Part shown: positions 1 through 30,318 of the stretch, in pieces
How the letters are laid out: every line of letters begins with the position of its first letter
Numbering within the stretch: position 1 is the first letter of the stretch
NCBI GenBank assembly: GCA_902826685.1
Contig: CADEFT010000002.1
Span: forward strand, 341,071-375,750
From: an uncultured Acidobacteriota bacterium
GTDB lineage: Bacteria; Acidobacteriota; Terriglobia; Bryobacterales; Bryobacteraceae
Length of the DNA stretch: 34,680 nt
Reading direction: 5' to 3'
Notes under the pieces: model-generated
The model's input: only the letters and a program-made list of their open reading frames with translations
Told to the model about the DNA's origin: nothing
Database searches by the model: none
Position numbers and translations under genes: made by a program

Positions 1-480
1 GTGATCGCATAGAATCCCCAGACCCGGCGGTCGCCGATGTGCGGCGGTGTCGAGGGGCCAGCGCCCGAAAGCGGACATTTCGAAGCGGCGATCCGACATA
101 GATCCCAGAAACTGTCGGCCGCCGATGTCGCGCGGCGGGTATCGAGGCACGCGCGGGAACATAGCGACGCGGTGATCGCACAGAATCCCCAGACCGCCGG
201 TCGCCGATGTTGCGCGGCGGTGTCGAGGCGCCAGCGCCCGAAGCGGACATTTCGAAGCGGCGATCCGACCTAGATCCCCAGAACTGTCGGCCGCCGATGT
301 CGCGCGGCGGGTATCGAGGCACGCGCGGGAACATATCGACGCGGTGATCGCATAGAATCCCCAGACCCGGCGGTCGCCGATGTGCGGCGGTGTCGAGGCG
401 CCAGCGCCCGCAGCGGACATTTCAAGGCGCTGATCCCACAGAGATCCCCAGAACTGCCGGGCACCGATGCGTTCGGCGGC
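1..480. repeat. Decayed tandem repeats (84-88 bp units) related to the neighbouring small gene
   Basis: The motif acatttcgaagcgg or a variant recurs at 75, 159, 247, 331 and 417, so the steps are 84, 88, 84 and 86 bp. Alternate units are more alike, which gives a higher-order period near 172 bp (1-171, 172-343, 344 onward). Read on the minus strand, the units contain peptides such as DIGGRQFWG...DRRFEM and RIGARQFWGSLWDQRLEM. These match HIGTRQFWRFLWDHRLEM of the small protein encoded at 600-806. The unit nearest that gene (417-480) matches best, with about 50 of 63 bases aligning to 647-709. Frames are broken, so I read these as non-coding remnants. Bases 481-599 hold nothing I recognise. 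Confidence 0.8.
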
Positions 481-599
481 ATCGAGGCGCACGCGACTGG
501 CGGAAGCCGGTGTGTATCCATGTCCAACTCCGGATGCCGCGGTGAGGAACATCAACAACGGGCGAATGACGGAAAGCCAACCGGCAACAAGCCCGTAGC

Positions 600-806
600 C
601 TAACGCGACGTGCGGCGCATCCGGCCCGCCCAGCGCAGGAACCGCAACATTTCGAGACGGTGATCCCACAGAAACCGCCAGAACTGGCGGGTGCCAATGT
701 GTTCGGCGTGCAGGCCCCAGTAGGTCTCGATGCGCCACCGCAGGTAAGGGCTCCGCCAGGGCGTGAGCCGGTACCCTTTCGCCGCTTGCCAGATAAACGG
801 AATCAC
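600..806 (-). CDS. Small Trp/Arg-rich conserved-looking protein, 68 aa
   Basis: I do not recognise a named family. The GTG start overlaps the TGA stop of the upstream VWFA gene (GTGA at 803-806), so translation is probably coupled, and this is the main support for a real gene. The protein is very basic and aromatic, with WRSPYLRWRIETYWGLHAEHIG in the middle (broken here as WRSPYLRWRIETY, then WGLHAEHIG) and FWRFLWDHRLEMLRFLRWA near the end. It has no signal peptide or clear membrane segment. A second argument for gene status is that its 3' half has been copied repeatedly into the spacer at 1-480, where the same peptide is still readable. Function is unknown; a cytoplasmic accessory of the VWFA operon is possible from context only. 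Confidence 0.6.
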   Translation of the reverse strand: MIPFIWQAAKGYRLTPWRSPYLRWRIETYWGLHAEHIGTRQFWRFLWDHRLEMLRFLRWAGRMRRTSR

Positions 807-1747
807 TTTTTCGGCGGCGCCGACTGGCTCATTCGCTTCTGTGTCCCGTCGGGCGTGGCGTAATAGCCGGAACGGGTCCGCACCTGCGGCCGGCCGGGCG
901 CATTCACCGTCACCTTGATCTGCCGGAACGTGCCGTCGAGATTCTGATTCAACGGGGAATAGGACATCATGAACTGATTGCGGATCTCATGCGCCACGTC
1001 GAGGGCGATCTTTTCCACCTCGGCCAGTTCCTTGGGAAAGAACACCAGGCCGCCGGAGGCGTTGGCCAGACTGCTGAGGGCGCGCTTGGCTTTCGCCGCC
1101 TCGCGCTTCTCTTCCTCGTTGAGCAGGCCAATGGCATAGATCAGCACTTCGGCGCGATGCGCCTTTTCAAGCAGTTTCTCCAGAGTAAGCAGCGACGTGT
1201 TGTCGTTGCCGTCGGTGATCACCAGCAGCACCTTCTTTGGACGCTTCCCTTTTTCCTTTACCTCGTCGATCGACATACTGAGCGCATCGCGCATGGCGGT
1301 GCCGCCGCGCGAATCGATGCGGGTCAGCCCCTCTTCCAGCTTCTTGATATCCGAGGTGAACGAGACGTCGAGGAACGCATCGTCGTTGAAGTTGACGATG
1401 AACATTTCATCGTTGCGATTGGATGCCTTCACCAGGGCGAGCGCGGCCGCCTCCACCTTCTGGCGCTTATCGCGCATGCTGCCGCTGTTGTCGATAACGA
1501 TGCCCATCGAGACCGGAATATCCTCGCGCTTGAACTCGTGAATGGGCTGCTCCACGCCGTTTTCAAGAACCTTGAACGATTCCTTGGGAAGCGAAGTAAG
1601 AAGCTTACCCGCCTTGTCCATGACGCTGGCGTGAAGAACCACTAATCGCGTATCGGAACGGAACGTGGGGGGCTCTTCCGGCTGTTGCGCGGCCAGGCTG
1701 GCCGCGAGGAGGGTAACTACGAAAAACGGTTTATTGCTGCGGAGCAT
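803..1747 (-). CDS. Secreted VWFA-domain protein (acidobacterial VWFA-related family)
   Basis: A 314 aa protein with an N-terminal signal peptide (hydrophobic stretch to about residue 20, LAASLAAQQ). A short beta-rich N-terminal region (30-80) is followed by a von Willebrand factor A domain (about 80-285). The metal-ion-dependent adhesion site is intact: DNSGS at 86-90, the Thr of GGTAMRDAL at 150 and the Asp of ITDG at 179. VWA domains bind protein ligands through a divalent cation, so an extracytoplasmic adhesion or assembly role is likely; the partner is unknown. The start lies 17 bp inside the upstream VWFA gene and the stop overlaps the small gene downstream, making a three-gene minus-strand operon. 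It is clearly a paralogue of its upstream neighbour. Confidence 0.9.
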   Translation of the reverse strand: MLRSNKPFFVVTLLAASLAAQQPEEPPTFRSDTRLVVLHASVMDKAGKLLTSLPKESFKVLENGVEQPIHEFKREDIPVSMGIVIDNSGSMRDKRQKVEAAALALVKASNRNDEMFIVNFNDDAFLDVSFTSDIKKLEEGLTRIDSRGGTAMRDALSMSIDEVKEKGKRPKKVLLVITDGNDNTSLLTLEKLLEKAHRAEVLIYAIGLLNEEEKREAAKAKRALSSLANASGGLVFFPKELAEVEKIALDVAHEIRNQFMMSYSPLNQNLDGTFRQIKVTVNAPGRPQVRTRSGYYATPDGTQKRMSQSAPPKK

Positions 1748-2768
1748 AGTAGCCCAGCCGCCAGAACGCCCGTAGTGGCGGGAGTCCCTTGGGCTGGTTC
1801 ACCTTCACTTTCACTCTGCGGTACTTTCCATCCTTGCTCTGATTGGCGGGCGTATAGCCCAGCACATACTGGTTCCGCAGTTCGATGCCGATCTTAGCCG
1901 CGACGTCCGGCAGTTCATTGATATTCTCCACGGGGAAATGACGGCCGCCGGTTTGTTCGGCAATCTCGCTCAGCAGTCCGGGCCCCGACAGTTCCTCCGC
2001 CGTACGGCCACGCGACGCGGCGGGCTCGAAAATTCCGATCGCATAGATCTGGACGTCCGCCTCGCGCACCAGGTTGCGAATCTCGCTTTCGGTATAGCGG
2101 CTGGAATTGTCCCCGCCGTCGGAAAGAATCAGGATCGCTTTCCGTGGATTCTTGGCCTTTTTCATCTGATGCAAAGCGAGGTAAACGGCATCGAGCAGCG
2201 CCGTGCGCCCTTTCGCATTGGTGAAGGTCAGCCGGTTCTGCACTTCTTCGGTGTTGTAAGTGAACGGGACCATCAATTCGGCGCGGTCGTTGAACTGCAC
2301 CAGGAAGAATTCATCCTCGGGATTGGCGGTCTTGAAAAACTGCGCGGCGGCCTGGCGCGACTTCCCGAGCTTGTTGCCCATGCTGCCGCTGGCATCGAAT
2401 ACAAGTCCCACCGAAAGCGGCGCATCCTCGCTCGAAAATTGCGAAATCGATTGCTCTGAGTTGTCTTCCCAAAGCCGGAAGTAATCTTTATCGAGGCCGG
2501 TGACGAAGCGATTGAGAGGATCGGTAACCGTGACGTTGATGAGGACCAGGGTGCTGTCGACGCGGATGTTGGCTCCGCCGCGCCGTTGCTCCGCCGGATT
2601 GGGCTCGCTACCCGGTTTGGCGCGCGGTTCAATTGAAACCCGCGCCGGCGCGCTCAGTGGCTTCTGCTCCGCCTCTACCTTGTTTTTGTCTTCCGCCTGA
2701 GCGGCTCCGAGGCTTGCCCAGGCGAGCGATGCGGCGGCGATACGGATGAGCGACCTTTGGATGGCCAT
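1731..2768 (-). CDS. Secreted VWFA-domain protein, first gene of the operon
   Basis: An upstream ATG exists at 2786, but the ATG at 2768 is preceded by GGAGGG with 7 bases spacing and is followed directly by MAIQRSLIRIAAASLAWASL, a normal signal peptide, so I chose it (345 aa). After a Lys/Glu/Pro-rich linker comes a beta-rich segment (RVDSTLVLINVTVTD) and a VWA domain with the MIDAS motif DASGS (about residues 125-129), the GRTALLDA threonine and ILSDGG. The end of the domain, LGYTPANQSKDGKYRRVKVKV, resembles the end of the downstream paralogue (MSYSPLNQNLDGTFRQIKVTV). The two genes overlap by 17 bp. Likely acts at the outer surface or in the periplasm; the ligand is unknown. Confidence 0.9.
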   Translation of the reverse strand: MAIQRSLIRIAAASLAWASLGAAQAEDKNKVEAEQKPLSAPARVSIEPRAKPGSEPNPAEQRRGGANIRVDSTLVLINVTVTDPLNRFVTGLDKDYFRLWEDNSEQSISQFSSEDAPLSVGLVFDASGSMGNKLGKSRQAAAQFFKTANPEDEFFLVQFNDRAELMVPFTYNTEEVQNRLTFTNAKGRTALLDAVYLALHQMKKAKNPRKAILILSDGGDNSSRYTESEIRNLVREADVQIYAIGIFEPAASRGRTAEELSGPGLLSEIAEQTGGRHFPVENINELPDVAAKIGIELRNQYVLGYTPANQSKDGKYRRVKVKVNQPKGLPPLRAFWRLGYYAPQQ

Positions 2769-2797
2769 CGATGGTCCCTCCATCAAAAACTACCCAA

Positions 2798-2803
2798 AGT
2801 ATA
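2798..2803 (-). promoter_or_regulatory. Candidate extended -10 promoter of the VWFA operon
   Basis: On the minus strand the sequence reads TGTTATACT, an extended -10 (TGn followed by TATACT) about 29 bases upstream of the chosen ATG at 2768. No convincing -35 is visible at the usual distance. The implied leader is about 20 bases long and contains the GGAGGG ribosome-binding site. Confidence 0.45.
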
Positions 2804-2883
2804 ACACCCGGGTTGTGGAGGCGAGCCGCGGACTTTCGTCCCATTCGCGGGATTGCCGCAGTACCGGAAATCGCGTTGCGGTA

Positions 2884-2889
2884 TAGAAT
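2884..2889 (+). promoter_or_regulatory. Candidate -10 box, leaderless start of the Rieske gene
   Basis: TAGAAT ends 6 bases before the ATG at 2896, so a transcript from it would begin at or next to the start codon. No Shine-Dalgarno sequence is present in front of this ATG. The -35 side is weak (GTACCG at 17 bp spacing). The same -10 hexamer sits at almost the same distance from the start of the esterase gene at 23475. Confidence 0.35.
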
Positions 2890-2895
2890 ATCGGC

Positions 2896-3402
2896 ATGTC
2901 TGAAACACAGGGGTCCGACCGCAATTTATCCCGGCGCCGATGGTACATCGGTGCCATCTACGGACTGCAGGCGATGATGGGCGCCGCGCTGGCCATTCCA
3001 GCCGCCGTCTATCTGCTGTTTCCTCCGAAATTGAAGAAGGAAGACCACTGGGTCGAGACGGCGGACCTGGCCAAGCTGACGCCCGGCACGCCTGAAGAGG
3101 TCGTGTTCCGGCGCGACCGTGTCGACGGGTGGAAGGTTTCGAGCGAAAAGGCCTCGGCGTGGGTCGTGAAAAAGAACGACGCCGAAGTGATCGCCTTTTC
3201 GCCGCAATGCACACACCTCGGCTGCGCCTTCCGGTGGGAGGCCAGAACGAAAACGTTCTTGTGCCCCTGCCACACGTCGAACTTCAGTCTCGACGGCAAG
3301 GTGGTGGACGGCCCGGCGCCTCGTCCGCTCGACCAGTACCAGGTGAAGATCGAAGGAACCAAAGTGCTGCTCGGTCCCATTCGCGTATCGCCAGAGGCTT
3401 AG
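2896..3402 (+). CDS. Rieske [2Fe-2S] protein of a bc-type complex
   Basis: A 168 aa protein. The N-terminus has a twin-arginine-like stretch (LSRRRWYIG, residues 11-19) followed by a hydrophobic anchor (about 19-42), as expected for Rieske proteins exported folded and left membrane-anchored. The cluster-binding boxes are CTHLGC (105-110) and CPCHTS (123-128). By family precedent Cys105, His107, Cys123 and His126 bind the cluster, and Cys110 and Cys125 form the disulfide. The second box has Thr where most family members have Gly. The role is to take one electron from quinol at the Qo site of cytochrome b and pass it to cytochrome c. The next gene, 4 bases downstream, encodes the cytochrome b partner, so the two form an operon. 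Confidence 0.95.
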   Translation: MSETQGSDRNLSRRRWYIGAIYGLQAMMGAALAIPAAVYLLFPPKLKKEDHWVETADLAKLTPGTPEEVVFRRDRVDGWKVSSEKASAWVVKKNDAEVIAFSPQCTHLGCAFRWEARTKTFLCPCHTSNFSLDGKVVDGPAPRPLDQYQVKIEGTKVLLGPIRVSPEA

Positions 3403-3406
3403 ATTC

Positions 3407-5032
3407 ATGAGACACGTTCTGGATTGGATCGAGTCCCGTACGGGGCTCGAGACCATGGTGAAGCATTTTCTATACGAAGACATTCCGGCCTCCGCGGGCT
3501 GGCATCAGGTCTTCGGCAGCGTGGCGCTGTTTCTCTTTCTCATCCAGGTCTTCACGGGCGCGATGCTCGCGTTCAACTATGCCCCCACGCCGGGCGAGGC
3601 CTACAACAGCTTGAAATACGTCGTCACCGAACTGACCGGTGGAACGCTGATCCGCGGCCTGCATCACTGGGGCGCGAGCACGATGATCGTGGTGGTTGTG
3701 CTTCACATGCTGCAGGTGTTCATTTGGGGCGCTTATAAGAAGCCGCGCGAGGCTACCTGGATGGTGGGCGTCATCCTGCTAATGCTCACGATGGCCTTCG
3801 GCCTCACGGGCTATCTGCTGCCCTGGGACAATCGAGCCTATTGGGGCACGGTGGTGACCACTCAGATCGCGGGCCTGGCGCCCGGCGCGGGCCCTTATGT
3901 GCAACGGCTCATGGGGGCCGAAAACGGAGTGGGCGTGGTAACGTTCGCGCGCTTCTACGCCATGCACACTCTGCTGCTGCCGCTCATCATGGTGGCCATC
4001 ATCGCCTTCCATGTGTACCTGGTGCGCAAGCACGGCGTGACGCCGGCGCCTGGCGACAACGCTCCGAAGAAGAAGTTCTTCCCGGAGCAGGTGTACAAGG
4101 ATACGGTGGCGGTGTTTCTCACTTTCCTGGTGTTATTCACGCTGGCGGCGGTGGTGAAGGTGCCGCTCGGCCGGCTGGCGGATCCGACCGACACCAGTTA
4201 CATCCCTCGTCCGGAATGGTACTTCCTGTTCCTTTTTCAGTTACTCAAGTTCTTTGAAGGAAAGATGGAAGTGGTGGGCGCGGTGATTCTGCCGAACTTG
4301 GCCATTGTCGCCTTGTTTCTGGTGCCGTTTATCGACCGCGGCAAGGTGATGCGGGTGACCCAGCGCACGATGGCGATGGCGGTGGTGGTGGCGGCGGCCA
4401 TTGGATGGTCGGCGCTTACGGTGGCGGCGGTACGCAGCACTCCGGCGCAGACCGAAGTGGATGTCACGCTGGCCGAACCCGCGCCGGAGACCGTGGCGTG
4501 GGCCAGTCTTTCGCCCGAGGAACTGGCGGGTCTCGGCTACTTCCGCGCCGAAAAGTGCGGTACCTGCCACGCGGTGGGTTCCGGTCCCGCCAAAAAGGGG
4601 CCGGATTTGAGCGGCACCGCCGGCAAGCGCGACGCCAGTTGGCTGATCGGCCATTTCAAGAATCCGCAGAGTCACGTGCCGGGGTCGGCCATGCCGGCCG
4701 TGAATCTGCCGGCGGCGCAATTGAACGCCCTGGCGGCATTCCTGTTGAAGCTGACTCCGCAGACCGCGACGGTGCTGATGGCTTCACCCGAAGCCGCGGT
4801 GGATGGGGCCATGGTTTACCAGCAGAACCGCTGCGGTACCTGCCATCAGGTGAATGGCGTTGGGATGAAGCTTGGCCCGCCGATGAATGGATTGGCGAAG
4901 CGGCGCGACCGGAAATGGGTGGAAGGGCACTTCCTCGATCCACAAAAGTTCTCGCCCGGTACGGTGATGCCGCCTTACCGTCTGTCGCCGGGGGAATTGG
5001 ACCGGCTTACGACGTACCTGATGTCGCTGTAA
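3407..5032 (+). CDS. Cytochrome b fused to a C-terminal diheme cytochrome c
   Basis: A 541 aa fusion. Residues 1-210 are the heme-bearing b6-like four-helix part. The heme ligand pairs fit His86/His187 and His100/His202, with 13 residues between the first pair and 14 between the second, as in cytochrome b6. Residues 225-310 are the subunit IV-like part, with PEWY at 269-272 (Qo site). One extra transmembrane helix (about 320-342) leads to a periplasmic tail with two heme c sites, CGTCH at 384-388 and 476-480, each with a later Met (429, 521) as the likely axial ligand. Together with the Rieske protein this gives quinol:cytochrome c oxidation without a separate cytochrome c1. A typical bc1 cytochrome b is about 400 aa, so roughly 200 residues are the added cytochrome region. 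The 3' end of this gene is copied in the spacer downstream. Confidence 0.94.
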   Translation: MRHVLDWIESRTGLETMVKHFLYEDIPASAGWHQVFGSVALFLFLIQVFTGAMLAFNYAPTPGEAYNSLKYVVTELTGGTLIRGLHHWGASTMIVVVVLHMLQVFIWGAYKKPREATWMVGVILLMLTMAFGLTGYLLPWDNRAYWGTVVTTQIAGLAPGAGPYVQRLMGAENGVGVVTFARFYAMHTLLLPLIMVAIIAFHVYLVRKHGVTPAPGDNAPKKKFFPEQVYKDTVAVFLTFLVLFTLAAVVKVPLGRLADPTDTSYIPRPEWYFLFLFQLLKFFEGKMEVVGAVILPNLAIVALFLVPFIDRGKVMRVTQRTMAMAVVVAAAIGWSALTVAAVRSTPAQTEVDVTLAEPAPETVAWASLSPEELAGLGYFRAEKCGTCHAVGSGPAKKGPDLSGTAGKRDASWLIGHFKNPQSHVPGSAMPAVNLPAAQLNALAAFLLKLTPQTATVLMASPEAAVDGAMVYQQNRCGTCHQVNGVGMKLGPPMNGLAKRRDRKWVEGHFLDPQKFSPGTVMPPYRLSPGELDRLTTYLMSL

Positions 5033-5054
5033 ACCGTAGTTCGGCGGCGATAAC

Positions 5055-5345
5055 TGATGCCGCCGTCTCTCGCCGGTGAATTGAACCGGCTTACGACCGA
5101 CCTCGCTGTAGCGCGGCGGCGATTTCGAGCTTCTGTGCCGTCACGTCGCTGAGCTTGGCGCGGGGAAAGCGATGCTGCCTCACCGTCTCTCGCCGAGGGA
5201 ATCGATCCGGCCCACGACCTGCCTCGCTGCAGCGATTTCGAGCTTCTGTGCCGTCACGTCGCTGAGCCTGGCGCGGGGCGAGCGATGCTCACCGTCTCCC
5301 TATGGCGGCGGCGATTTCGAACCCGGACGAGCCGCCTCACCGTCT
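5055..5345. repeat. Decayed copies of a convergent gene junction (cytochrome tail + GAF tail)
   Basis: The plus strand at 5057 reads MPPSLAGELNRLTTDLAV then stop, a clear copy of the cytochrome end MPPYRLSPGELDRLTTYL (4970-5032). At 5172 it reads MLPHRLSPRESIRPTTCLAAA, and near 5331 PPHRLSAEKSNG. The minus strand of the same stretch reads LSDVTAQKLEIAAA twice, matching the GAF protein end FTEAETAALLEIAAA. The element gatttcgagc occurs at 5121 and 5234 (113 bp apart), and gatttcga again at 5313. So the unit that was multiplied spans the tail-to-tail junction of the two convergent genes. I see no independent gene between 5033 and 5336. Confidence 0.8.
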
Positions 5346-5795
5346 GTCCGCGGAGAAATCGAACGGCGGTGCGGCGGCGGCAATCTCGAGCAGCGCCGCC
5401 GTCTCCGCCTCCGTGAACGAACGCTCGGCCCGGTTGGCGATACCGAAGCTGCCAATCGCCTTGCCGTCGCGCAGCACGGGAACCACGATGGCGCCTTCCA
5501 TCCCCGTAAGCCTGGCGCCGGGGCGCACATCGCCGCTCGCATCGGTCTGGATGTTGCAGGCGGTGACGGGCGCCGCGCGCTCCACCGCCAGGCCCGCCAT
5601 GCCCTTGCCGACCGGGATGCGCCGCACCATTTTCAATACGGGCTCCGGCAGCGGCGGACTCATCGCCTTCAGGTGCAGGAATCCATCCGGCTCCAACAGA
5701 TGAACGGTGCCGCTATCGGCGGCGAAGTGGCGCAAGGTCAATTCGAGGACGCGTTGACAATCGCCGGCGGCGGCTCGGATCTCGTCTGGAATCAC
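5337..5795 (-). CDS. GAF-domain protein, 152 aa
   Basis: The start is a GTG that overlaps the TGA of the DUF1501 gene (GTGA at 5792-5795); upstream codons in this frame lie inside DUF1501 and do not belong to it. The whole protein is one GAF domain: ELTLRHFAADSGTVHLLEPDGFLHL, then IPVGKGMAGLAVERAAPVTACNIQTD (about 60-85, each quoted in parts: IPVGKGMAGLAVERAAPV), then GAIVVPVLRDGKAIGSFGIAN (101-121, given here as GAIVVPVLRDGKAIG) and FTEAETAALLEIAAAA at the end. GAF domains bind small molecules such as cyclic nucleotides, or sense redox state. There is no output domain, so it must act through a partner or be a free-standing enzyme of the fRMsr type; Cys80 is present but the full fRMsr cysteine set is not visible. 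Position at the end of the PSD1-DUF1501 operon suggests a link to that pathway. Confidence 0.85.
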   Translation of the reverse strand: MIPDEIRAAAGDCQRVLELTLRHFAADSGTVHLLEPDGFLHLKAMSPPLPEPVLKMVRRIPVGKGMAGLAVERAAPVTACNIQTDASGDVRPGARLTGMEGAIVVPVLRDGKAIGSFGIANRAERSFTEAETAALLEIAAAAPPFDFSADRR

Positions 5796-12314: not shown

Positions 12315-12662
12315 ATGCTTCGAATCGGGTCGATTGTGTGGGGTGTAAGCGATGTTCCGGCGGCGATCCGGTTCTGGAGCGCCGCTCTCGGTTACCGGCC
12401 GCGGGAAGAGCCTTCCGATGACTGGGCCGTGCTGATTCCCTCGAACGGACCAGGCCCGCAAATGGCCATCAAGTTGGTGACGTCCGAAGCCGCAACGCAC
12501 CAGCGTCATCACCTCGATTTGTACGCGGCCGATCAGGCGGCCGAAGTTGAGAGGTTGATTCAACTCGGCGCCAGGCGTGTGCAATGGGACTACGAAACGG
12601 GCGCCGTTTATGTGGTGCTGGCCGACCCGGACGGCAACCGGTTTTGTGTGGTTCAAAAGTAG
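12315..12662 (+). CDS. VOC (glyoxalase/bleomycin-resistance-like) family protein
   Basis: A 115 aa single VOC module starting 4 bases after the monooxygenase-like gene. The fold is seen in SDVPAAIRFWSAALGYRPR (12-30) and the C-terminal LADPDGNRFCVVQK (102-115). HHLDLY at 65-70 supplies a candidate metal-binding His, but the first beta strand has VWGV where metal-dependent members usually have a His, so one ligand may be missing and the protein may be a binding protein instead of an enzyme. It is the last gene of the 9868-12662 operon and ends directly against a convergent gene. Confidence 0.88.
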   Translation: MLRIGSIVWGVSDVPAAIRFWSAALGYRPREEPSDDWAVLIPSNGPGPQMAIKLVTSEAATHQRHHLDLYAADQAAEVERLIQLGARRVQWDYETGAVYVVLADPDGNRFCVVQK

Positions 12663-21570: not shown

Positions 21571-21707
21571 GCCGCTTCTGATGCAAGGCGGCCGCCATCC
21601 CTCCATTCGCCGGAAGTAATTGATACCGCTGGCGTGACCCGTGCGAGGGCGAGTTCTATGCCGGACAGGCTGTCCGGACGGTCCCGTCACAGTGTCCGTT
21701 CAGGCGA

Positions 21708-23467: not shown

Positions 23468-23474
23468 GCATCGC

Positions 23475-24935
23475 ATGATGCGGGCTCTCATACCGATCTT
23501 TTTCACACTCTGCCTCCAAGCGCAAAAACCGGATTTCGCCATCGTCAAGGGACTGGTGGACGACCAGGTGCTGCAGCGCGACGGCGCCGGTAAAGCGGCC
23601 GTCGAACTCCAGGGCACTGGCACGCTCAACGACCGCGAGGTGGAAGTGCGGGTGCTCGATAAGACCGGACCGCTACCGGGACTCGACTGGAAGCCTGCCG
23701 GCAGGATCGCGCGCGAGCAATGGAGTGCGAAGCTGGAATTGCCCACCGGCGGCCCTTACCGCGTGGAAGCGCGCGTGGCGCAATCGGGCGTGCAGGCAGC
23801 GATCACGGGTGTGCTGGTGGGCGATCTTTGGCTGCTCGCCGGGCAATCGAACATGGAAGGCGTCGGCGATCTGGTGGGCGTGGAGCCGCCCAACGGCTTG
23901 GTGCACAGCTTCGATATGGCCGACCGCTGGGGGATCGCCGAAGAGCCGCTGCATACGTTAGTATCGGCCACCGATCGCGTTCACTGGCGGCGCAATGCCA
24001 ACAAGGAGCCCGAGCGTTATGAAGGGGAGCGACTGACGAAATACGTCGCCGCGCGGCGCAAGGGTGCGGGCCTCGGCCTCCCGTTCGCCGCCGAGATGGT
24101 GAAACGCACCGGTGTGCCCGTGGGGCTGCTGCCCTGCGCTCATGGCGGCACGTCGATGGATCAATGGAGTCCCGATCTGCGCGATCAGGGCGGAGATTCG
24201 CTGTACGGCGGCGCGATCCGGCGCGCGCGTCTGGCTGGCGGCAAGGTCGCCGGTATCCTTTGGTATCAGGGTGAATCCGACGCGTCGCCCAAAGCCGCGC
24301 CCGAATTCCGCGCCAAGTTCGAGAAACTGGTGGCGGCGTTCCGCTCAGACCTGGGCCAGGCCGAGGTTCCGTTTTATTACGTGCAGATCGGGCGTCACGT
24401 GGCCACTGCCAATGCCAACGAGTGGAACCACGTGCAGGAGATGCAGCGCCAGGCCGAATCGGCTATCCCCTACACGGGCATGGTCACGGCCATCGACCTT
24501 GCGCTCGACGACGGCATCCACGTGGGTGTCGGCGATTTGAAACTGCTCGGCCGGCGTATGGCGAACCTCGCCTGCCACGACCGCTTTCCCGGCGCCGAAG
24601 CGTGTGGCTGGCTGAAGCGCGGTCCGCGGCCGATCAGCGTGCGGTATGCGGGCAATCGCATTCGCATCCGGTTTGCCGAGGTCAACGGGAAACTCACCAG
24701 CCTGGGGCGTGTTTCCGGATTCTCGGTGCATGATGCGGCGGGCGCAGTGGTTCCGTTCTTCTACCGCGCCGAGATCGACTCGACGGACCCCACGGCGATC
24801 GTGCTGCATGCGGGCGGCAAGCTGCCCGAAGGCGCGACGCTGCGCTACGGTGCGGGCAAGGATCCTTACTGCAATGTGCGCGACCAGGCGGGGATGGCGC
24901 TGCCTGTCTTTGGGCCACTGGCAATCGAGCAGTAG
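23475..24935 (+). CDS. SGNH hydrolase of the sialate O-acetylesterase type (acetylxylan esterase-like)
   Basis: A 486 aa secreted protein. Start 23475 follows from the promoter and gives a short signal peptide (MMRALIPIFFTLCLQAQ). A beta-rich N-terminal domain (about 30-112) precedes the hydrolase domain. The nucleophile is Ser125 in LLAGQSNMEG, the Gly block is in PCAHGGTSMDQW (220-231), WYQGESDA (263-270) carries the conserved GES, and the Asp/His pair is DDGIHVG (345-351; Asp346, His349). The C-terminal part is a beta domain ending PVFGPLAIEQ. Such enzymes remove acetyl groups from sugars or plant polysaccharides. It stands alone. Its last 50 bases are duplicated at 29630-29673, on the other side of the ECF block. 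Confidence 0.92.
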   Translation: MMRALIPIFFTLCLQAQKPDFAIVKGLVDDQVLQRDGAGKAAVELQGTGTLNDREVEVRVLDKTGPLPGLDWKPAGRIAREQWSAKLELPTGGPYRVEARVAQSGVQAAITGVLVGDLWLLAGQSNMEGVGDLVGVEPPNGLVHSFDMADRWGIAEEPLHTLVSATDRVHWRRNANKEPERYEGERLTKYVAARRKGAGLGLPFAAEMVKRTGVPVGLLPCAHGGTSMDQWSPDLRDQGGDSLYGGAIRRARLAGGKVAGILWYQGESDASPKAAPEFRAKFEKLVAAFRSDLGQAEVPFYYVQIGRHVATANANEWNHVQEMQRQAESAIPYTGMVTAIDLALDDGIHVGVGDLKLLGRRMANLACHDRFPGAEACGWLKRGPRPISVRYAGNRIRIRFAEVNGKLTSLGRVSGFSVHDAAGAVVPFFYRAEIDSTDPTAIVLHAGGKLPEGATLRYGAGKDPYCNVRDQAGMALPVFGPLAIEQ

Positions 24936-24990
24936 GCTATTTCTCGGCGATCCGGGCGAGGGAACAAGCCGGCCGGCTTCTTGCCAATTT
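24934..24990 (-). pseudogene. Remnant of a methyltransferase 3' end (left copy of a duplicated junction)
   Basis: Directly after the esterase stop, 27 bases (24934-24960) match 29674-29700 with one difference. That segment is the 3' end of the intact methyltransferase at 29677-30318 (minus-strand LAWIAEK then stop). Weaker similarity continues to about 24990 (gccggccggcttc against gccgtccggctcc). The upstream bases, the esterase tail, also match 29656-29673. So both gene tails occur twice. The copy here retains only the last 20 codons or so of the methyltransferase. Confidence 0.75.
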
Positions 24991-24994
24991 CTGT

Positions 24995-25039
24995 CACTTT
25001 TCAAATTATCTGGCGTAGAACTTTGCACCCTATTTGGCG
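24995..25039 (+). repeat. Left terminal inverted repeat
   Basis: The inner 30 bases (25010-25039), starting ctggcgtagaactttgcacc, match the reverse complement of 29536-29565 at 27 positions. The outer 15 bases match about 9 of 15. The three differences in the inner part fall at third positions of the frame SGVELCTLFG, read inward, so this may derive from a coding sequence. Confidence 0.7.
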
Positions 25040-25368
25040 CCGGGCGGGGTCGTTCGGCGGTTCCGTTGCACAGACCCGTCGCCGCGTCACGGCTCAGCGC
25101 AATAGGGTTTTGCAACGCTCAAGTCTCCACCAGCGACCAATGGCTCCACCGTAGCAGAGCCGGTCGTTTCCGCAATCGGCCGGTACGAAGCCCAGGTCCG
25201 CACCAGTTCACCGGAACAAATGCGACTTCCCGCGAGTTTGGCCGACCAAGCTGCGCTTTGGACTCGCCTGCCCACCCAAGACCCTTTCACAGAGCAGCTT
25301 TCCTTGGCGCAATGGAAAAAGTTGTCACAAACAACCGGTCCGCGGTGTTCTTACGTCATACAACCTTG
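25040..25368. other. Non-coding stretch before the ECF sigma gene
   Basis: The sigma-factor frame is open through this region but the codons look non-native, so I do not treat it as coding. An in-frame ATG occurs at 25312. TGTCACA (25323-25329) and CGTC (25354-25357) resemble the two halves of a promoter used by some ECF sigma factors, but 24 bases lie between them, more than the usual 16-17. Otherwise I see nothing. Confidence 0.4.
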
Positions 25369-25935
25369 ATGAATGGAGATCACATCGGCTTGTGGGACGA
25401 GACCGGGAAAGAACTTGGCGAGACCAATGTCGCCCCGCGGCTCAATCTTGAACAAGCCTTCGCAGCCCATCATCAACTCGTGTTTCGTTATGCCATGTCC
25501 CTGAGTGGCAATGAAGCATTGGCGGAGGATGTCGTCCAGGAGGTGTTCATCCGCCTGCATCAGAACATGGAAGAGGCACAGCGTAATGGAGTGCTTCGCG
25601 GATGGCTCTTGCGCGTCGCCGCGAACGTTGCGCGAAACCTGTTGCGCGGCCAGTTCCGCGCCAGGACGAGGGACGAGGCATACGCCGCGCAGACCGGATC
25701 AAGCGGGTCGTCGCCAGAAATAGAACTACTTCGGCGGGCTGAGATTGAGAGCGCCCGTCGCGCCCTGGCCGCCGTTACCGAACCGCTTCGCGGGTGCTTA
25801 CTGTTGCGGAACGAAGGGCTGTCGTATCGGGAGATTTCGATCGCCTTGGATTTGAACGAAGCAAGCATTGGAACGATGCTGGTCCGGGCCCGACGTGAGT
25901 TCGTCCGGCATTTCGAGAAAGGGGGAGGATCGTGA
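25369..25935 (+). CDS. ECF-type RNA polymerase sigma factor
   Basis: A 188 aa protein from ATG 25369; ATG 25312 would add 19 residues. Sigma region 2 is at about 27-90 (LEQAFAAHHQLVFRYAMSLS, LAEDVVQEVFIRLHQNM, GWLLRVAANVARNLLRGQFR) and region 4 at about 125-182 (SARRALAAVTEPLRGCLLLR, LSYREISIALDLNEASIGTM, LVRARREF). Regions 1.1 and 3 are absent, as in ECF factors. The gene ends GGGGGAGGATC, which supplies the ribosome-binding site for the anti-sigma gene, and overlaps it. It would direct transcription of a small regulon, probably including the secreted proteins downstream, when the anti-sigma factor releases it. Confidence 0.93.
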   Translation: MNGDHIGLWDETGKELGETNVAPRLNLEQAFAAHHQLVFRYAMSLSGNEALAEDVVQEVFIRLHQNMEEAQRNGVLRGWLLRVAANVARNLLRGQFRARTRDEAYAAQTGSSGSSPEIELLRRAEIESARRALAAVTEPLRGCLLLRNEGLSYREISIALDLNEASIGTMLVRARREFVRHFEKGGGS

Positions 25936-26627
25936 TGGCGTGTCCCACTGAAGAAAGCCTGCAGGCGTACCTGGATCGTGAGTTGCCGGCCGAAGTAGCG
26001 TCGATGACGCGTCTACATCTGGACGGCTGCCCGAAATGCGCGGCGTCGCTGCGCGAGATGGAATTGGCGTTCGACTCGATGCGCGAGGCTTTCGAGGTCG
26101 AGGCACCGGTGGTCGCCACGAGCGCCCGGTTGCGGGCGCGGCTCGAATCCTCGATGGCGGGCAAGCCCGGCAAGGAATGGATGCCCCAGTGGTTGCGCTG
26201 GGCCGCGATTCCGGCGACTCTCGTGGTGGCAGCCATGGGGTGGTTATTGATTCCCCCAAGCTCCGATTCATCGCGGGGAGCGGCGGTTGTCGAGCCCGTT
26301 GCGCAGTCTTCCTTGCCGGAGCGCAATCCGGTGAAAGTACAGCCGAAGCGCGACGCTCGGCAACGTCGCCCGAGCCGCCGACCTTCCTTGCGTCCCGAAG
26401 CGGAGGCAGCGGCAGGCGTCGAGGAAGTCACAGAGTTCTTCACCTTGCGTGAAAGAGATGAACTACCCACAAGCCAAGGCGTTCGGCTGGTGCGCGTGGA
26501 ACTGACTAGTTCCGCGCTCATTGAAGCTGGTTTCCCTTTGGCATTGCTTCGGGGGAATACCGAAGTTACGGCGGACGTGATTCTGGCCGAGGACGGGTTA
26601 GCTAGATTGATCCGCTTCGTGCGCTAA
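25935..26627 (+). CDS. Zinc-finger anti-sigma factor, membrane-anchored
   Basis: A 230 aa protein. GTG 25932 and ATG 25935 are both in frame; GGAGG 6 bases before the ATG favours 25935. The N-terminal zf-HC2/ZAS motif is HLDGCPKC (His28, Cys32, Cys35), which binds the sigma factor in the cytoplasm. One transmembrane helix follows (about 79-101, WLRWAAIPATLVVAAMGWLL). Outside are a Ser/Pro/Arg-rich linker (to about 150) and a C-terminal domain of about 80 residues (ELPTSQGVRLVRVELTSSAL, FPLALLRGNTEVTADVILAE) that may be the sensor or a target for regulated cleavage. The overlap with the sigma gene keeps the two proteins in step. Confidence 0.9.
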   Translation: MACPTEESLQAYLDRELPAEVASMTRLHLDGCPKCAASLREMELAFDSMREAFEVEAPVVATSARLRARLESSMAGKPGKEWMPQWLRWAAIPATLVVAAMGWLLIPPSSDSSRGAAVVEPVAQSSLPERNPVKVQPKRDARQRRPSRRPSLRPEAEAAAGVEEVTEFFTLRERDELPTSQGVRLVRVELTSSALIEAGFPLALLRGNTEVTADVILAEDGLARLIRFVR

Positions 26628-26657
26628 GCGTTGCGCGCTCACATAAAGGAGACGAAA

Positions 26658-27575
26658 ATGAGGCGAGAAATCAAGTACTGGATGTTTGGCGGGTTGCTTG
26701 TTGCCGGATCCGTAAATGCACTGGCGCAAGATCCAAGCAAGTCCCCGGCCGTTGACGGAGAAGTATTCCGCGTGTTGGCGTCGCAGCCTTTGCCTGTTGA
26801 CGTGATCAAAGGCGCGCCGTACTCGGCAACGGCAACCACCGAGATTGTCCAGACTCTGAGCGACGGTAACCAAATCGTTCAGCGCAACGAAACGCGGCTA
26901 TACCGTGACAGCGCGGGGCGCACGCGCCTCGAGCAGAGCTTGAACACGATCGGGCGGTGGAGAGCCGCGACAGCCTCGACGCTCATCACAATCAACGATC
27001 CCGTGGCGCGAGTGGCCTACACGCTCGACCCGAGCACGCTCACCGCCCACCAGAGCATCGTCGTCCAGAAGCCGCTCACACCTCGTTGGACTGGGAGTTT
27101 TTCCTTGAACGGTAGGGCGCTCTCGCGGGAGGAGTTCGAGGAGATGGCGCAGCGAAAGCTACTTGGCAGCCCCGGCTCGCCAGGCTTCGGAGGCACAATT
27201 GATCCAAGCGATCCTAACGCGAAGCAGAAGCTCACGGCCATACAGCCCGGCAAGACAGGTGGATCTGGACAGAGCAAACGGGAGTCCCTCGGCGCCAAAG
27301 TCATGGAGGGCATCCAGGCATCCGGCACCAGGGTTACAGTGGTCATCCCGGCAGGCGACGTAGGGAACAAGCTGCCCCTCGAAATCGTCGACGAAACCTG
27401 GTTTTCGCCCGACTTGCAGATGAACTTGATGACGACGCACCGAGACCCGCGCTCAGGCGAGACCACCTACAAGCTAACGAACTTGAGCCGGGGCGAGCCC
27501 GCGCCAGATTTGTTTGCCGTGCCCGCGGGCTACGCCCTGAAGAGCGCCAAGCCGGCCAGGACGGCAAAGCCCTAA
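26658..27575 (+). CDS. Secreted protein of unknown function in the ECF operon
   Basis: A 305 aa protein. AAAGGAGA with suitable spacing precedes the ATG at 26658, which I chose over the earlier TTG at 26631. A signal peptide follows (KYWMFGGLLVAGSVNALAQ). The body is beta-rich: YSATATTEIVQTLSDGNQIV, RNETRLYRDSAGRTRLEQS, VARVAYTLDPSTLTA, ETWFSPDLQMNLMTTHRDPR, GETTYKLTNLSRGEP. This order of strands is seen in uncharacterised acidobacterial secreted proteins next to ECF factors. A long Gly/Ser/Pro-rich insert lies at about 150-200. No enzyme motif is visible. It is probably controlled by the sigma factor upstream and may act with the hydrolase fusion, 23 bases on. Confidence 0.8.
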   Translation: MRREIKYWMFGGLLVAGSVNALAQDPSKSPAVDGEVFRVLASQPLPVDVIKGAPYSATATTEIVQTLSDGNQIVQRNETRLYRDSAGRTRLEQSLNTIGRWRAATASTLITINDPVARVAYTLDPSTLTAHQSIVVQKPLTPRWTGSFSLNGRALSREEFEEMAQRKLLGSPGSPGFGGTIDPSDPNAKQKLTAIQPGKTGGSGQSKRESLGAKVMEGIQASGTRVTVVIPAGDVGNKLPLEIVDETWFSPDLQMNLMTTHRDPRSGETTYKLTNLSRGEPAPDLFAVPAGYALKSAKPARTAKP

Positions 27576-27598
27576 CCGAATCGGAAGGATCTTGCTTC

Positions 27599-29464
27599 AT
27601 GAAGGTAACCACCAGCAGCCGCTCATACTCGATGCTCACCGTAGTGGCTATCGCGAGCGTGACTCTGATCTCATTTCCCCAACAAGCAAGCGCCCAGAAA
27701 GAGGCGGCAAAGACGTCAACAAATGCCGGCACGGCGGGCACCGATATGGAACGGCTGCAGGCTCAGAACCGGCTATTGAGCGAGCAGTTGCAGGAGTTCC
27801 GCAGCCAGATGGACTCGGTGGCGCGATATCTCGAATCAGCGCCCGAAATCCAAACCGCCGACTACGCAACAGCGCGAAGCGAATTTCGGACGAAGTTGGT
27901 GCGAGAGGGGCCTCCGCCACAATCGACAGGCTCGTTTCCCAGCGCGCCGGACGGCGTGCGTGAAGTGGCCTTCGCCTCTGGTCCATTGACTTTGAAAGCC
28001 TGGATCAACCCGCCAACTGTCCCCAGCAAGCGGCCTGCGGTGATCTTTCTCCACGGCGGCTTCTCATTCGGACTCGGTGATTGGGAACAGGCACGACCCT
28101 ACAGGGATGCCGGGTTCATCACGCTCGTTCCCGCATTGCGGGGCGAGAACGGGCAGCCCGGTGCGTGGTCCTCGTTCTACAACGAGGTGGATGATGTCCT
28201 GGCGGCGGCTGAGCACCTGATCAAGCAACCCTACATCGACGCCGGCAACGTTTTTCTTGCCGGCCATAGTGTGGGAGGGACCTTGTCTCTCTTGTCGTCC
28301 ATGGCGTCTTCCCGGTTCCGAGCGGTCGCGGCATTTGACGGCCTGCCGGTCTTCACGGAACGACGCGCCGGGTTGGTGCCGTTCGACAGTAGCGACGCGC
28401 GCGAAGCCCGGATGCGATCAGTTGCGGCATTTCCGGGCAGCTTCAAGTGTCCCGCGCGAATTTACTCCGCGACGTCGAGAGTGGGCAGCGGCCGCCAACA
28501 GCTACCGCTGGCGTGGCGTCGCACCGCATATCTTGCCAAGCAGCAAGGCTTGGACGTCGAGGCGATTGAAGTGGAGGGAGATCATACTTCTCATGTCCAG
28601 GCCGCAATGCGGCAGAGCATCCAGTTCTTCCGAGGGATCTACGGGCGCGATATGGACGAATGGACAGCGCCACCGGCTCCGCTGCCAACCGCCTTGGATG
28701 TGGAATTAGGGCCGGGCATGTTGTTGAAGACCGTACGCATCGAACCCGGCTCATTCCGAATGGGATCGCCGGACGACGAGGCGGGCCGAGGCACCGATGA
28801 GACGATTCGTACCGTCACCATCCAAGCACCGTTCACAATGGGGATCTTTGAGGTAACGCAAGCCCAGTACCGGCAAGTGATGGGAGTGAGCCCCAGCCTC
28901 TTCGCGCCAAAGAGAGGAGGGCTCGGCGCCGAACGCGTTGTGGGAATGGACACCAGCAACTTCCCGGTTGAGTATGTGACCTGGGAGGCGGCGATGGACT
29001 TCTGCCGGGCCGTTTCGCTGATGCCCGGAGTCGTCGAAAAAGGCTGGATGGTCGATCTGCCGACCGAAGCGGAGTGGGAATACGCGGCGAGGGCGGGCGC
29101 CTCCACGGCCTTCCCTTGGGGGAATACGATTTCCAGCACACAGGCGAACATCAATGGAGACAAGCCGTATGGGGGTGCGCCAGTGGGGCCATTTCTGGGC
29201 CGACCGACGACGGGGGGTAGCTACGCATCCAATGCTTGGGGACTCTACGACATGATCGGCAATGTGAACGAACGGACCAAGGACTGGTACGTGCCGAACT
29301 ACTCGGACGGTGCCAACGAGGAGCGGAGGGCTCGTACGATTCGAGGGGGCGGCTGGGCCGCGGATGGAAGCGCCAGCCGGTCCGCGCAGCGGGGGGCGCT
29401 GGAGCCGTCGCGAGGCGCGCTTCACACGGGTTTCCGTGTTGTTGTACGTCAGCGCACGAAGTAG
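27599..29464 (+). CDS. Fusion: alpha/beta hydrolase + formylglycine-generating-enzyme-like (SUMF1) domain
   Basis: A 621 aa secreted protein. After a signal peptide (ends about ASA, 32) comes a Gln/Leu-rich coiled-coil-like stretch (48-75, MERLQAQNRLLSEQLQEF). The hydrolase domain (about 120-350) has HGG at 152-154, the nucleophile elbow GHSVGG (Ser224) and a late DHTSH (328-332) that supplies the catalytic His. It resembles dipeptidyl-peptidase or prolyl-oligopeptidase catalytic domains. Residues 372-618 form an FGE-sulfatase-like domain (FRMGSPDDEAGRGTDE, FTMGIFEVTQAQYRQVMGVS, LPTEAEWEYAARAG, IRGGGW, TGFRVV). In the family the core reads GNVWEW; here it is GNVNERTKDWY. The copper Cys pair of true FGE is not seen, so the domain is probably not an FGE enzyme; sugar, protein or ligand binding fits better. 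Confidence 0.88.
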   Translation: MKVTTSSRSYSMLTVVAIASVTLISFPQQASAQKEAAKTSTNAGTAGTDMERLQAQNRLLSEQLQEFRSQMDSVARYLESAPEIQTADYATARSEFRTKLVREGPPPQSTGSFPSAPDGVREVAFASGPLTLKAWINPPTVPSKRPAVIFLHGGFSFGLGDWEQARPYRDAGFITLVPALRGENGQPGAWSSFYNEVDDVLAAAEHLIKQPYIDAGNVFLAGHSVGGTLSLLSSMASSRFRAVAAFDGLPVFTERRAGLVPFDSSDAREARMRSVAAFPGSFKCPARIYSATSRVGSGRQQLPLAWRRTAYLAKQQGLDVEAIEVEGDHTSHVQAAMRQSIQFFRGIYGRDMDEWTAPPAPLPTALDVELGPGMLLKTVRIEPGSFRMGSPDDEAGRGTDETIRTVTIQAPFTMGIFEVTQAQYRQVMGVSPSLFAPKRGGLGAERVVGMDTSNFPVEYVTWEAAMDFCRAVSLMPGVVEKGWMVDLPTEAEWEYAARAGASTAFPWGNTISSTQANINGDKPYGGAPVGPFLGRPTTGGSYASNAWGLYDMIGNVNERTKDWYVPNYSDGANEERRARTIRGGGWAADGSASRSAQRGALEPSRGALHTGFRVVVRQRTK

Positions 29465-29535
29465 ATCACGATAAACGCCGCACGGCCACGCAGACCGGTA
29501 CGGCCTTCCTCGGCGTACCAGAAGCAGGCACGCCA

Positions 29536-29580
29536 CGCCAAATAGAGTGCAAAGGTCTACACCAGAAACCGTGCAAAGTG
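29536..29580 (-). repeat. Right terminal inverted repeat
   Basis: The reverse complement of 29536-29565 matches 25010-25039 at 27 of 30 positions, and matching is weaker out to 29580. Read inward on the minus strand it gives SGVDLCTLFG, against SGVELCTLFG on the left. The short space between the fusion gene stop (29464) and this repeat shows nothing else. Confidence 0.7.
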
Positions 29581-29673
29581 TCCCACATTTCCCCCATGGC
29601 GCGTTCGGCCTTGACGGCGTATTCGAAGGACTCGGCGGGGATGCCGTCCGTGAGCCGCTGGCGATCGAGCCGG
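29581..29673 (-). pseudogene. Right copy of the duplicated junction: methyltransferase fragment then esterase tail
   Basis: 29581-29640 aligns without gaps to 29891-29950 in the intact methyltransferase, at 43 of 60 positions. The minus strand reads SFEYAVKAERAMGEMWD, against SLEHAVEIDRAVEEMCR. From about 29630 to 29673 the plus strand resembles the end of the esterase gene: gcggggatg, then ctggcgatcgagc against ctggcaatcgagc, that is PLAIE, with a 7-base deletion between. The intact methyltransferase stop follows at 29677. So this is the other half of a tandem duplication that began in the esterase tail and ended inside the methyltransferase. Confidence 0.75.
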
Positions 29674-29676
29674 AGG

Positions 29677-30318
29677 CTATTTCTCGGCGATCCAGGCGAG
29701 AAACATGCCGTCCGGCTCCACGTCTTCCCAATAGGAGATGAACTGGCTCGACACGCTGCGGCAGTGCCGCCCGAGCAGCTTTTCCAACTCCTCGCGGCGG
29801 AACCATTTTTCCCATTCGGGCGTTTTCAGTTTGCCCCAATGTTCGGCGTTTTTGTCGATGATCACCAGCCGGCCGCCGGTCTTCACGACGCGGCACATCT
29901 CCTCGACGGCGCGGTCGATCTCGACGGCGTGTTCCAAAGACTCCGTGGCGTAGGCCGCGTCGAAGGCTCCGGAGGCGAACGGCAGCGCCGTCATCGTGCC
30001 CGAAACCGCGCCGATGCCCGGCGGAACGAAGCGCAGCATGGCTTCGGAAAGGTCGAAGGCGCAGATCCGGGAGCCGGGATTGCGCTCCTTCAAAACGCGC
30101 GCGAAGCGTCCCTTCCCGCTACCTACGTCGAGCACGCGCTTGCCGTCCAGCGGCCCGAAGGTTTCGGCGATCAGCTTGACGTGATAGATGCGCGGGTCGA
30201 TGGTGGAGGGGAAGTGCTCCTCATCGGTGGCCGATTCGTCGAACGAACGGCGGATCTCCTTGAGCGGCACCGCAGCCCCGCCCGACCGGCCGAAAACTTT
30301 GCGCAGCTTGCCGAACAA
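29677..30318 (-). CDS. SAM-dependent methyltransferase, class I
   Basis: A 213 aa cytoplasmic protein with a TTG start one base after the phosphofructokinase stop; there is no better start nearby. The SAM-binding fold is complete: motif I VLDVGSGKG (62-70), acidic residue Asp89 in ICAFDLSEAML, motif II region LPFASGAFDAAYATESLEH (112-130) and VVKTGGRLVIIDKN (144-157). It looks like a Methyltransf_11 type small-molecule methyltransferase; the substrate cannot be told. It is last in the OsmC-PFK-methyltransferase group. A partial paralogous copy of its sequence lies at 29581-29630, and its 3' end is copied again at 24934-24990. Confidence 0.9.
   Translation of the reverse strand: MFGKLRKVFGRSGGAAVPLKEIRRSFDESATDEEHFPSTIDPRIYHVKLIAETFGPLDGKRVLDVGSGKGRFARVLKERNPGSRICAFDLSEAMLRFVPPGIGAVSGTMTALPFASGAFDAAYATESLEHAVEIDRAVEEMCRVVKTGGRLVIIDKNAEHWGKLKTPEWEKWFRREELEKLLGRHCRSVSSQFISYWEDVEPDGMFLAWIAEK

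Follow-up and report, generated by a model that had tools for sequence, protein, structure and literature searches.

Worn copies of gene ends in spacers between convergent genes of an uncultured Acidobacteriota bacterium

Results

Gene ends are duplicated in three spacers of the window

The window, a stretch of 34,680 nucleotides from an uncultured bacterium of the Bryobacteraceae (Acidobacteriota), contains three spacers between convergent genes, referred to as sites 1 to 3, as well as two convergent pairs that have no spacer (Table 1). An initial annotation had claimed that gene 3' ends are duplicated in the three spacers (1-480; 5055-5345; 24934-24990 with 29581-29673), which was confirmed by alignments and shuffles. 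It had also described the two spacer-less pairs as free of duplication, and the local repeat scan detected no repeat cluster at either of these junctions.

Table 1. Features of the duplicated and abutting convergent junctions, in window coordinates.
Feature	Position	Strand	Details
Site 1, left gene, RmlD-like	outside window, stop at -537		Pfam on its two pieces
Site 1, tandem array from tail of 68-aa gene	1-480, continuing leftwards beyond window		across 100-N gap
Site 1, copy of last ~100 bp of RmlD-like gene plus junction	490-639	+	source -639 to -499
Site 1, right gene, 68-aa ORF	600-806	-	conserved downstream of VWA gene
Site 1, tail segment of 68-aa gene matching array units	647-708	-	repeat family D3; 68-82% to reference copy
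Site 2, left gene, cytochrome b / cytochrome c	3407-5032	+
Site 2, source tail of cytochrome gene	4947-5031	+
Site 2, duplicated spacer	5033-5336
Site 2, cytochrome tail, first copy	5038-5110	+	63/71 aligned columns; 0/500 shuffles as good
Site 2, repeat pair, 65 bp	5112-5176 and 5225-5289		92%; repeat family D8
Site 2, cytochrome tail, second copy	5171-5229	+	48/59 columns; E 4e-10; repeat family D9
Site 2, third, short cytochrome-tail match	5331-5364	+	34 nt, 79%; family D9
Site 2, right gene, GAF domain	5337-5795	-	GAF found in longer frame 5337-6299
Abutting convergent pair	12315-12968		stops 12662/12663; no spacer
Overlapping convergent pair	19571-21690		stops 20185/20182; no spacer
Site 3, junction, first copy	24906-24960		SASA esterase end plus methyltransferase tail copy; family D11
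Site 3, 4.6-kb insert splitting the duplicated tail	24986-29589
Site 3, insert ends, imperfect inverted repeats of 54 nt	24986-25039 and 29536-29589		78% complementary
Site 3, methyltransferase tail copy, second piece	29584-29670	-	source 29894-29986
Site 3, junction, second copy	29646-29700		family D11; continues into intact methyltransferase gene
Site 3, methyltransferase gene (Methyltransf_11), intact	29677-30318	-
902-aa repeat ORF, split	31967-34675

At site 1 the duplication is real and larger than the region first described (1-480). The left gene, correctly placed outside the window by the initial annotation, is RmlD-like, and the copy of its tail and junction agrees with the source in 111 of 131 aligned columns, a match equalled by none of 500 block shuffles. 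The opposing 68-aa gene has relatives of 69-74% identity in three loci (L142, L146 and L154). Repeats of its tail start less than 70 bp from the RmlD stop and run to position 480, with periods of about 81 and 165-172 bp and a 100-N scaffold gap inside the array.

At site 2 the cytochrome tail occurs in two copies and a third short match, which overlaps the present stop of the GAF gene. The tail of the GAF gene is only weakly recognizable in the spacer (1 of 500 shuffles was as good), making a junction-spanning unit less sure at this site. Twenty cytochrome loci were examined, with three contigs counted twice, and 18 of them had the next gene called within 2206 bp. Because none of these 18 neighbours matched the GAF or the DUF1501 protein, the site 2 junction cannot be polarised.

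At site 3, in line with the proposal that the duplicated unit spans the convergent junction, the junction itself is common to both copies (85%; 0/500 shuffles as good). The second piece of the methyltransferase tail copy resembles its source over 50 bp at 78% (E 4e-8). The insert that splits the duplicated tail carries genes for an ECF sigma factor, a zf-HC2 protein, a protein without assignment and a hydrolase/FGE-sulfatase, and no transposase domain was found among these four genes with Pfam. Its right end occurs once in the whole own genome, and 1 of 20 relatives has a single weak match to it; its left end matched only its own locus in the sampled sequence. A simple transposon that had generated a long target duplication was considered and rejected: the lack of a transposase domain, the unrepeated right end and the presence of both gene tails in the flanking copies fit better with an earlier duplication followed by insertion. 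Site 3 also hints at a way in which a place could form where a new operon can land without doing harm.

Duplicated gene ends are enriched at convergent junctions

Junctions were tallied over 1.96 of the 7.42 Mb of the same genome (stretches C1-C7), in which a home-made gene caller gave 231 convergent, 1059 co-directional and 227 divergent junctions. In a curated count, made by hand after the data had been seen, tail duplications were found at 12 convergent, 4 co-directional and 1 divergent junctions. This corresponds to 12/231 versus 5/1286 for all others (odds ratio 14), and the excess persists when the three window sites are removed (p = 3.5e-5). About one in 20 convergent junctions in the sampled part thus holds worn copies of gene ends, while 219 of the 231 have no curated duplication. 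An automatic rule, applied as an alternative count without hand removal of rows, gave 9 convergent, 8 co-directional and 0 divergent cases for the same junction totals (9/231 versus 8/1286, p = 3e-4; odds ratio 5.3 for convergent versus co-directional). The genome-wide comparison of spacers with their flanking gene ends that the initial annotation had called for therefore shows, over 1.96 Mb, unequal frequencies with convergent junctions enriched, and duplications are present at further junctions besides the three loci of the window.

Sites 1 and 3 are curated yet missed by the automatic rule because their copies lie too far apart; also missed are C4:200647, curated from a cluster and reading by eye beside a gap, and C1:144775, the sole curated divergent case. 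Four co-directional junctions kept in the automatic count were left out of the curated one: C2:375635 and C4:33136 are broken repeat ORFs, and at C2:255901 and C3:266558 it was not clear that the repeats copy a gene tail. When the first 1.56 Mb (383 spacers of 60-6000 bp) was scanned with blast, convergent C2:375390 and divergent C2:373008 were dropped by hand as belonging to the split 902-aa repeat ORF, and weak matches at co-directional C1:71592, C1:132271 and C2:18239 stayed outside the curated set. So did a 22-bp match at convergent C6:7012 and spacer repeat clusters without a demonstrated gene tail, e.g. at convergent C4:280359 and C1:47646. C1:299916 was first classed as co-directional and became convergent after a 160-aa minus-strand gene was called.

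In the last 400 kb (C5-C7) the automatic rule found 0/51 convergent and 1/220 co-directional junctions duplicated, implying that the density is uneven along the genome. The comparison sequences, comprising a same-genus stretch, a same-order stretch and a GC-matched replicon, had no duplication at their 150 convergent junctions taken together; an E. coli stretch served only for a list of nine convergent gaps. The initial annotation had suggested a general process, of which there is no sign across bacteria in these sequences. Local direct-repeat clusters of all kinds number 21.4 per Mb here versus 2.5, 5.0 and 2.2 in the comparison sequences. The process seems confined to the lineage and commoner at convergent junctions, though not restricted to them.

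The repeats are probably local tandem duplications

At the sites one unit recurs head to tail and always directly oriented, as expected of local tandem duplication, and own-flank matches among the 383 spacers of the first 1.56 Mb were direct in 19 cases and inverted in 1. The unit extends across the junction at several convergent loci. At C1:266881 a repeat from -106 to 11, across the left stop, pairs with 170 to 286, across the right stop; at C3:327385 (-84 to 31 with 491 to 606) and C4:168426 (-78 to 59 with 70 to 207) the repeats are in register across both stops. The repeat likewise spans the junction at co-directional C2:137766, C4:123596 and C6:105603, which indicates that converging transcription is not required.

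Insertion of a mobile or palindromic repeat family between genes would also place repeats in spacers, and two arrays, C1:39622 and C4:280359, look alike by eye, while the site 3 insert has inverted-repeat ends. However, the spacers of sites 1 to 3 (site 3 represented by two ends) match their own loci only (E <= 1e-3), with no off-locus match in 1.96 Mb of the own genome or in 800 kb of G007 and G016. With the units so confined in the sampled sequence, we rejected such a family as the source of sites 1 to 3 and regard it as highly improbable for the spacers in general.

We judge it equally improbable that the repeats are artefacts of a draft assembly. A 100-N gap lies within or next to 4 of the 12 curated convergent cases, and in places identical copies flank a gap on both sides, but the remaining 8 cases, including site 2, are gap-free. 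Moreover, convergent copies in the automatic scan differ by 8-26% with indels, except for one 35-bp match at 100%, which is unlike overlapping contig ends. The 1.96 Mb contain seven 100-N scaffold gaps, each of them within a local repeat cluster or immediately next to one, which is the pattern expected of unresolved arrays; the three 10-N gaps do not lie at such clusters.

Discussion

The origin of bacterial spacers is rarely visible; here, duplicated gene ends can be recognized in some spacers between convergent genes, which otherwise abut in this genome. We propose as the simplest mechanism, with a probability of roughly 60%, that short tandem duplications across abutting convergent junctions, filtered by selection, built these spacers. 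The lineage would make short tandem duplications (roughly 60-200 bp) more often than its relatives, perhaps by slippage or template switching during replication. Since convergent genes abut, with a median gap of 3 bp and 157 of 231 pairs (68%) at 15 bp or less, duplicating a segment in tandem across the junction keeps both genes intact; harming neither, such copies are likely to persist. Within genes, copies would last almost exclusively where they preserve the reading frame, and those beside promoters or within operons would mostly be lost, so that convergent junctions may become collecting places where copies accumulate, expand into arrays and then decay. Inserts such as the 4.6-kb segment at site 3 could then land there without harm. 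This would probably be junk-making as a habit of the lineage, not the work of a new machine. If mutation were equal everywhere and filtering alone produced the bias, other junctions would have to lose about 92% of their duplications (relative survival 0.07 and 0.08). This demand and the uneven density along the genome count against the proposal. Highly identical copies were too few to rank young versus old duplications by bias. A constraint of the kind that filtering calls on, initiation signals restricting divergent ends more than convergent ones, is named in PMC2174442, partly in a reviewer's report published alongside it.

The initial annotation had offered either a mechanism acting at converging transcription or a spacer-building process. 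Under the first, polymerases colliding where genes abut would cause forks to stall or R-loops to remain, and the junction would be copied by template switching; convergent junctions would then be duplication hotspots of this lineage, with spacers made of the genes' own tails that collapse later, when new gene ends form within the copies. The convergent excess in both counts agrees with this, and most convergent genes abut, so that their transcripts would have to collide. Yet the same anatomy occurs at the three co-directional junctions named above, the great majority of convergent junctions lack a curated duplication, and selective survival would leave the same excess. The enrichment stands; we consider both the collision step and the hotspot history built on it unlikely.

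Less likely still is that the spacers themselves are selected because separating abutting convergent genes cuts antisense read-through or gives room for termination. Spacers of 117-1339 bp are now present at 10 of the 12 curated convergent junctions, compared with the usual gap of 3 bp, but most convergent pairs stay at 15 bp or less. In addition, a terminator scan of window positions 1-6000 gave 6 sites versus 5.6 in shuffles, neither the site 2 spacer nor 1-480 contained one, and we rejected intrinsic terminators as the selected product.

Should selection explain the bias, as in the tandem-duplication reading that we prefer, the junctions would be a neutral recorder of short tandem duplication, showing what selection removes elsewhere; should mutation explain it, collisions of converging polymerases would reshape genomes.

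Several known systems resemble these repeats in part. Intergenic VNTR or minisatellite loci are short head-to-tail spacer arrays whose growth is usually ascribed to slippage, but the unit here is made of the flanking gene ends and crosses the junction in the clearest cases. The relatives searched included no second strain of this species. REP and other palindromic extragenic repeats also lie in spacers next to gene ends and form dispersed families, unlike the units of sites 1 to 3, which were not found at other loci in the sampled sequence. In a literature search, largely at record level, no paper was seen to describe duplications that span convergent junctions. The relevant passages of PMC2174442 ask why compression is better tolerated at convergent than at divergent ends; they concern overlap of convergent genes and do not mention junction duplication.

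The tandem repeats of Borgs, as described in PMC9879509, are head-to-tail and characteristic of particular genomes, with next to none in the host genomes of that comparison; they are intergenic or begin in gene ends, with in-ORF unit lengths divisible by three. Borg units are perfect, A-enriched and about 20 nt long in the examples given, and nearly all genes of a Borg replichore lie on one strand (PMC9879509). The repeats described here differ from these in collecting at convergent junctions of a 63% G+C genome, in their units of roughly 60-200 bp and in their convergent copy pairs, which are mostly 74-92% alike and not perfectly identical. They resemble them in their periods inside genes: of 18 clusters within called genes, 17 have listed periods that are multiples of three, a result that also speaks for filtering. 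As many of these clusters are probably ordinary protein-domain repeats, the signal is only partly about the junction process. The single exception among the 18 lies at the end of a gene and includes a scaffold gap.

Gene tails are duplicated at three convergent junctions

The initial annotation had described duplicated gene 3' ends at three junctions of convergent genes, and clear copies of gene tails were found at all three. At site 1, the left-hand gene does lie outside the window and is RmlD-like. Copies of the tail of the opposing 68-aa gene start at most 70 bp from the RmlD stop and fill the array, which contains a 100-N gap, up to position 480. Relatives of the 68-aa protein, at 69-74% identity, lie beside the VWA gene in three other related loci. 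The neighbouring genes next to it share DNA similarities of 28-48 bp at an offset of 904 bp and are likely a tandem pair of VWA-type paralogues, the Pfam scan having covered 803-1747. At site 2, between the cytochrome and GAF genes, a further 34-bp match to the cytochrome tail overlaps the present GAF stop. The GAF tail itself was weakly matched in the spacer (1 of 500 shuffles was equally good), which makes a junction-spanning unit less certain at this site.

At site 3, a 4.6-kb insert sits between the two junction copies and divides the duplicated methyltransferase tail, one piece of which lies before it and the other after it; the duplication probably preceded the insertion. The insert carries genes for an ECF sigma factor, a zf-HC2 protein, a protein without assignment and a hydrolase/FGE-sulfatase; no transposase domain was found in these four genes with Pfam.

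Coordinates of features at the three sites and at related loci (window positions unless a contig is given)
Feature	Position	Strand	Remark
Site 1, left gene, RmlD-like	stop at -537		Pfam
Site 1, right gene, 68-aa ORF	600-806	minus	conserved directly downstream of VWA gene
Site 1, copy of RmlD tail and junction	490-639		111/131 aligned columns
Site 1, neighbouring genes	803-1747 and 1731-2786	minus
Site 2, cytochrome tail copies	5038-5110 and 5171-5229		direct repeat of gene end
Site 3, SASA esterase/methyltransferase junction copies	24906-24960 and 29646-29700
Site 3, insert	24986-29589
Site 3, insert ends	24986-25039 and 29536-29589		54-nt imperfect inverted repeats
Site 3, methyltransferase tail, second piece	29584-29670
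902-aa ORF	31967-34675	minus	four-copy internal repeat
L055, convergent spacer of gene tails	C3:154436-155493		nine listed matches to right gene's tail
L099, convergent spacer of gene tails	C3:327385-327918		several junction-spanning copies
L023, spacer array	C1:39622-39952
L096, spacer array	C4:280359-280698

Tail duplications are in excess at convergent junctions of the sampled genome

The genome comprises 7.42 Mb in 83 contigs (G+C 63% in the sampled part), of which we sampled 1.96 Mb (all of C1, C2 and C3, 320 kb of C4 and stretches of C5-C7), with genes called by a home-made in-frame dicodon model. The window lies at C2:341071-375750. Each spacer of 60-6000 bp was searched by BLAST against the nearest 400 bp in its own flanking genes, and same-strand matches at E <= 1e-4 were counted. 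Over the first 1.56 Mb, such matches occurred in 9/48 convergent, 2/133 divergent and 8/202 co-directional spacers; one of the nine convergent and one of the two divergent cases come from a repeat ORF that the gene caller had split. With flanks taken instead from other genes of the same class, no match was obtained in the same 1.56 Mb; an earlier form of this control, run on a smaller amount of sequence, produced a single inverted match. When each spacer was aligned by Smith-Waterman with up to 60 borrowed flanks, 13/96 convergent gene ends (1.6 expected), including two in the split repeat ORF, beat all controls, as did 7/266 divergent 5' ends (4.4 expected) and, at co-directional junctions, 7/200 3' ends and 4/200 5' ends (3.3 expected for each).

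An automatic junction-level scan of the 1.96 Mb, by junction class as the initial annotation had proposed, likewise found the excess at convergent junctions (9/231, against 8/1059 co-directional and 0/227 divergent; convergent versus rest, p = 3e-4). Curation by hand, carried out after the data had been seen, added four cases, three convergent and one divergent, and removed four co-directional ones (12/231, 1/227 and 4/1059). The curated bias persists without the three prompting sites (p = 3.5e-5), so the similarity extends beyond them, and convergent still differs from co-directional when the weak co-directional hits are restored to a total of eight (p = 2.7e-5). The locus C1:299916 counts as convergent solely through a called 160-aa minus-strand gene, and C3:183418 and C4:200647 adjoin scaffold gaps. 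The last 400 kb sampled yielded by BLAST 1/11 convergent (a 22-bp match), 1/58 co-directional and 0/36 divergent spacers, and by the junction scan no convergent and one co-directional case; the convergent excess thus rests on C1-C4. The array units of L023 and L096 look similar by eye and may belong to a dispersed family of repeats distinct from the tail duplications.

All seven 100-N gaps in the 1.96 Mb lie inside or directly beside local repeat clusters; the three 10-N gaps lie away from them. Some copies that are identical across a gap may represent contig ends that were left unmerged. However, gaps are absent from eight of the 12 curated convergent cases, and most copies show indels and differences of 8-26%, which unmerged ends cannot explain.

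The bias appears limited to the lineage

A general process, as the initial annotation had suggested, is not borne out by the comparison sequences. The junction scan found no convergent case in 400 kb of a same-genus genome (G007, 0/56), 400 kb of a same-order genome (G016, 0/47) or 450 kb of pSymB, an S. meliloti replicon of matching G+C (0/47), and one co-directional case in G007 (1/179); BLAST matched one co-directional spacer in G016. By Smith-Waterman, 0/62, 1/58 and 0/54 convergent ends in G007, G016 and pSymB, respectively, beat all controls. A further 389 kb from 37 loci, of related and other records, gave 0/19 convergent spacers of at least 60 bp and one co-directional match, and small same-genus loci (115 kb) gave 0/4. 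The density of local direct-repeat clusters of all kinds is 21.4 per Mb in the genome under study, whereas the three sequences compared with it have 2.5, 5.0 and 2.2. As far as sampled, the bias is lineage-limited; other same-genus genomes are thinly represented, so it may be genus-wide. Relatives of the window's cytochrome protein occur at 24 named loci (17 with acidobacterial names, e.g. Bryobacterales, six with Nitrospirae-type names and one with a Chlamydiales name); the genome studied is likely acidobacterial. The window's DUF1501 protein has 54 matches in the whole genome at E <= 1e-100.

Selective survival of short tandem duplications would account for the bias

Convergent genes in the sampled part nearly abut, with a median gap of 3 bp and gaps of at most 15 bp in 157/231 pairs (11/56, 4/47 and 5/47 in the comparison sequences). 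An exact 4-bp overlap occurs in 32/231 convergent pairs, and the median divergent gap is 110 bp. A tandem duplication across abutting convergent ends would be preceded by the complete left gene and followed by the complete right gene, with the extra tails outside both; an equivalent duplication between co-directional or divergent genes would copy starts or promoters. Divergent ends have been described as more constrained by initiation signals than convergent ones (PMC2174442), partly in a printed reviewer's report. For 17 of the 18 repeat clusters within genes, the listed periods are multiples of three, which makes selection on such repeats visible, although many of these clusters are probably ordinary domain repeats.

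The alternative, a mechanism that acts where transcription converges, was also raised initially. Three co-directional junctions carry junction-spanning repeats like the convergent ones, and converging transcription is thus not required to make them. General short tandem duplication followed by selective survival most simply accounts for the real bias. With an equal hit rate at all junctions, the observed counts would imply that about 92% of the duplications at non-convergent junctions were lost, a loss that we infer.

In the literature portions reached by our search, junction-spanning duplication at convergent genes was not found as a described process. Borg tandem repeats (PMC9879509) resemble those described here in being genome-specific, at gene ends and in frame within genes, but differ in being perfect and A-enriched. 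The 902-aa ORF near the window's end, which has no Pfam match, contains four copies of a 270-bp internal repeat at 73-82% to the reference. A 100-N gap lies beyond the ORF, directly past the window end.
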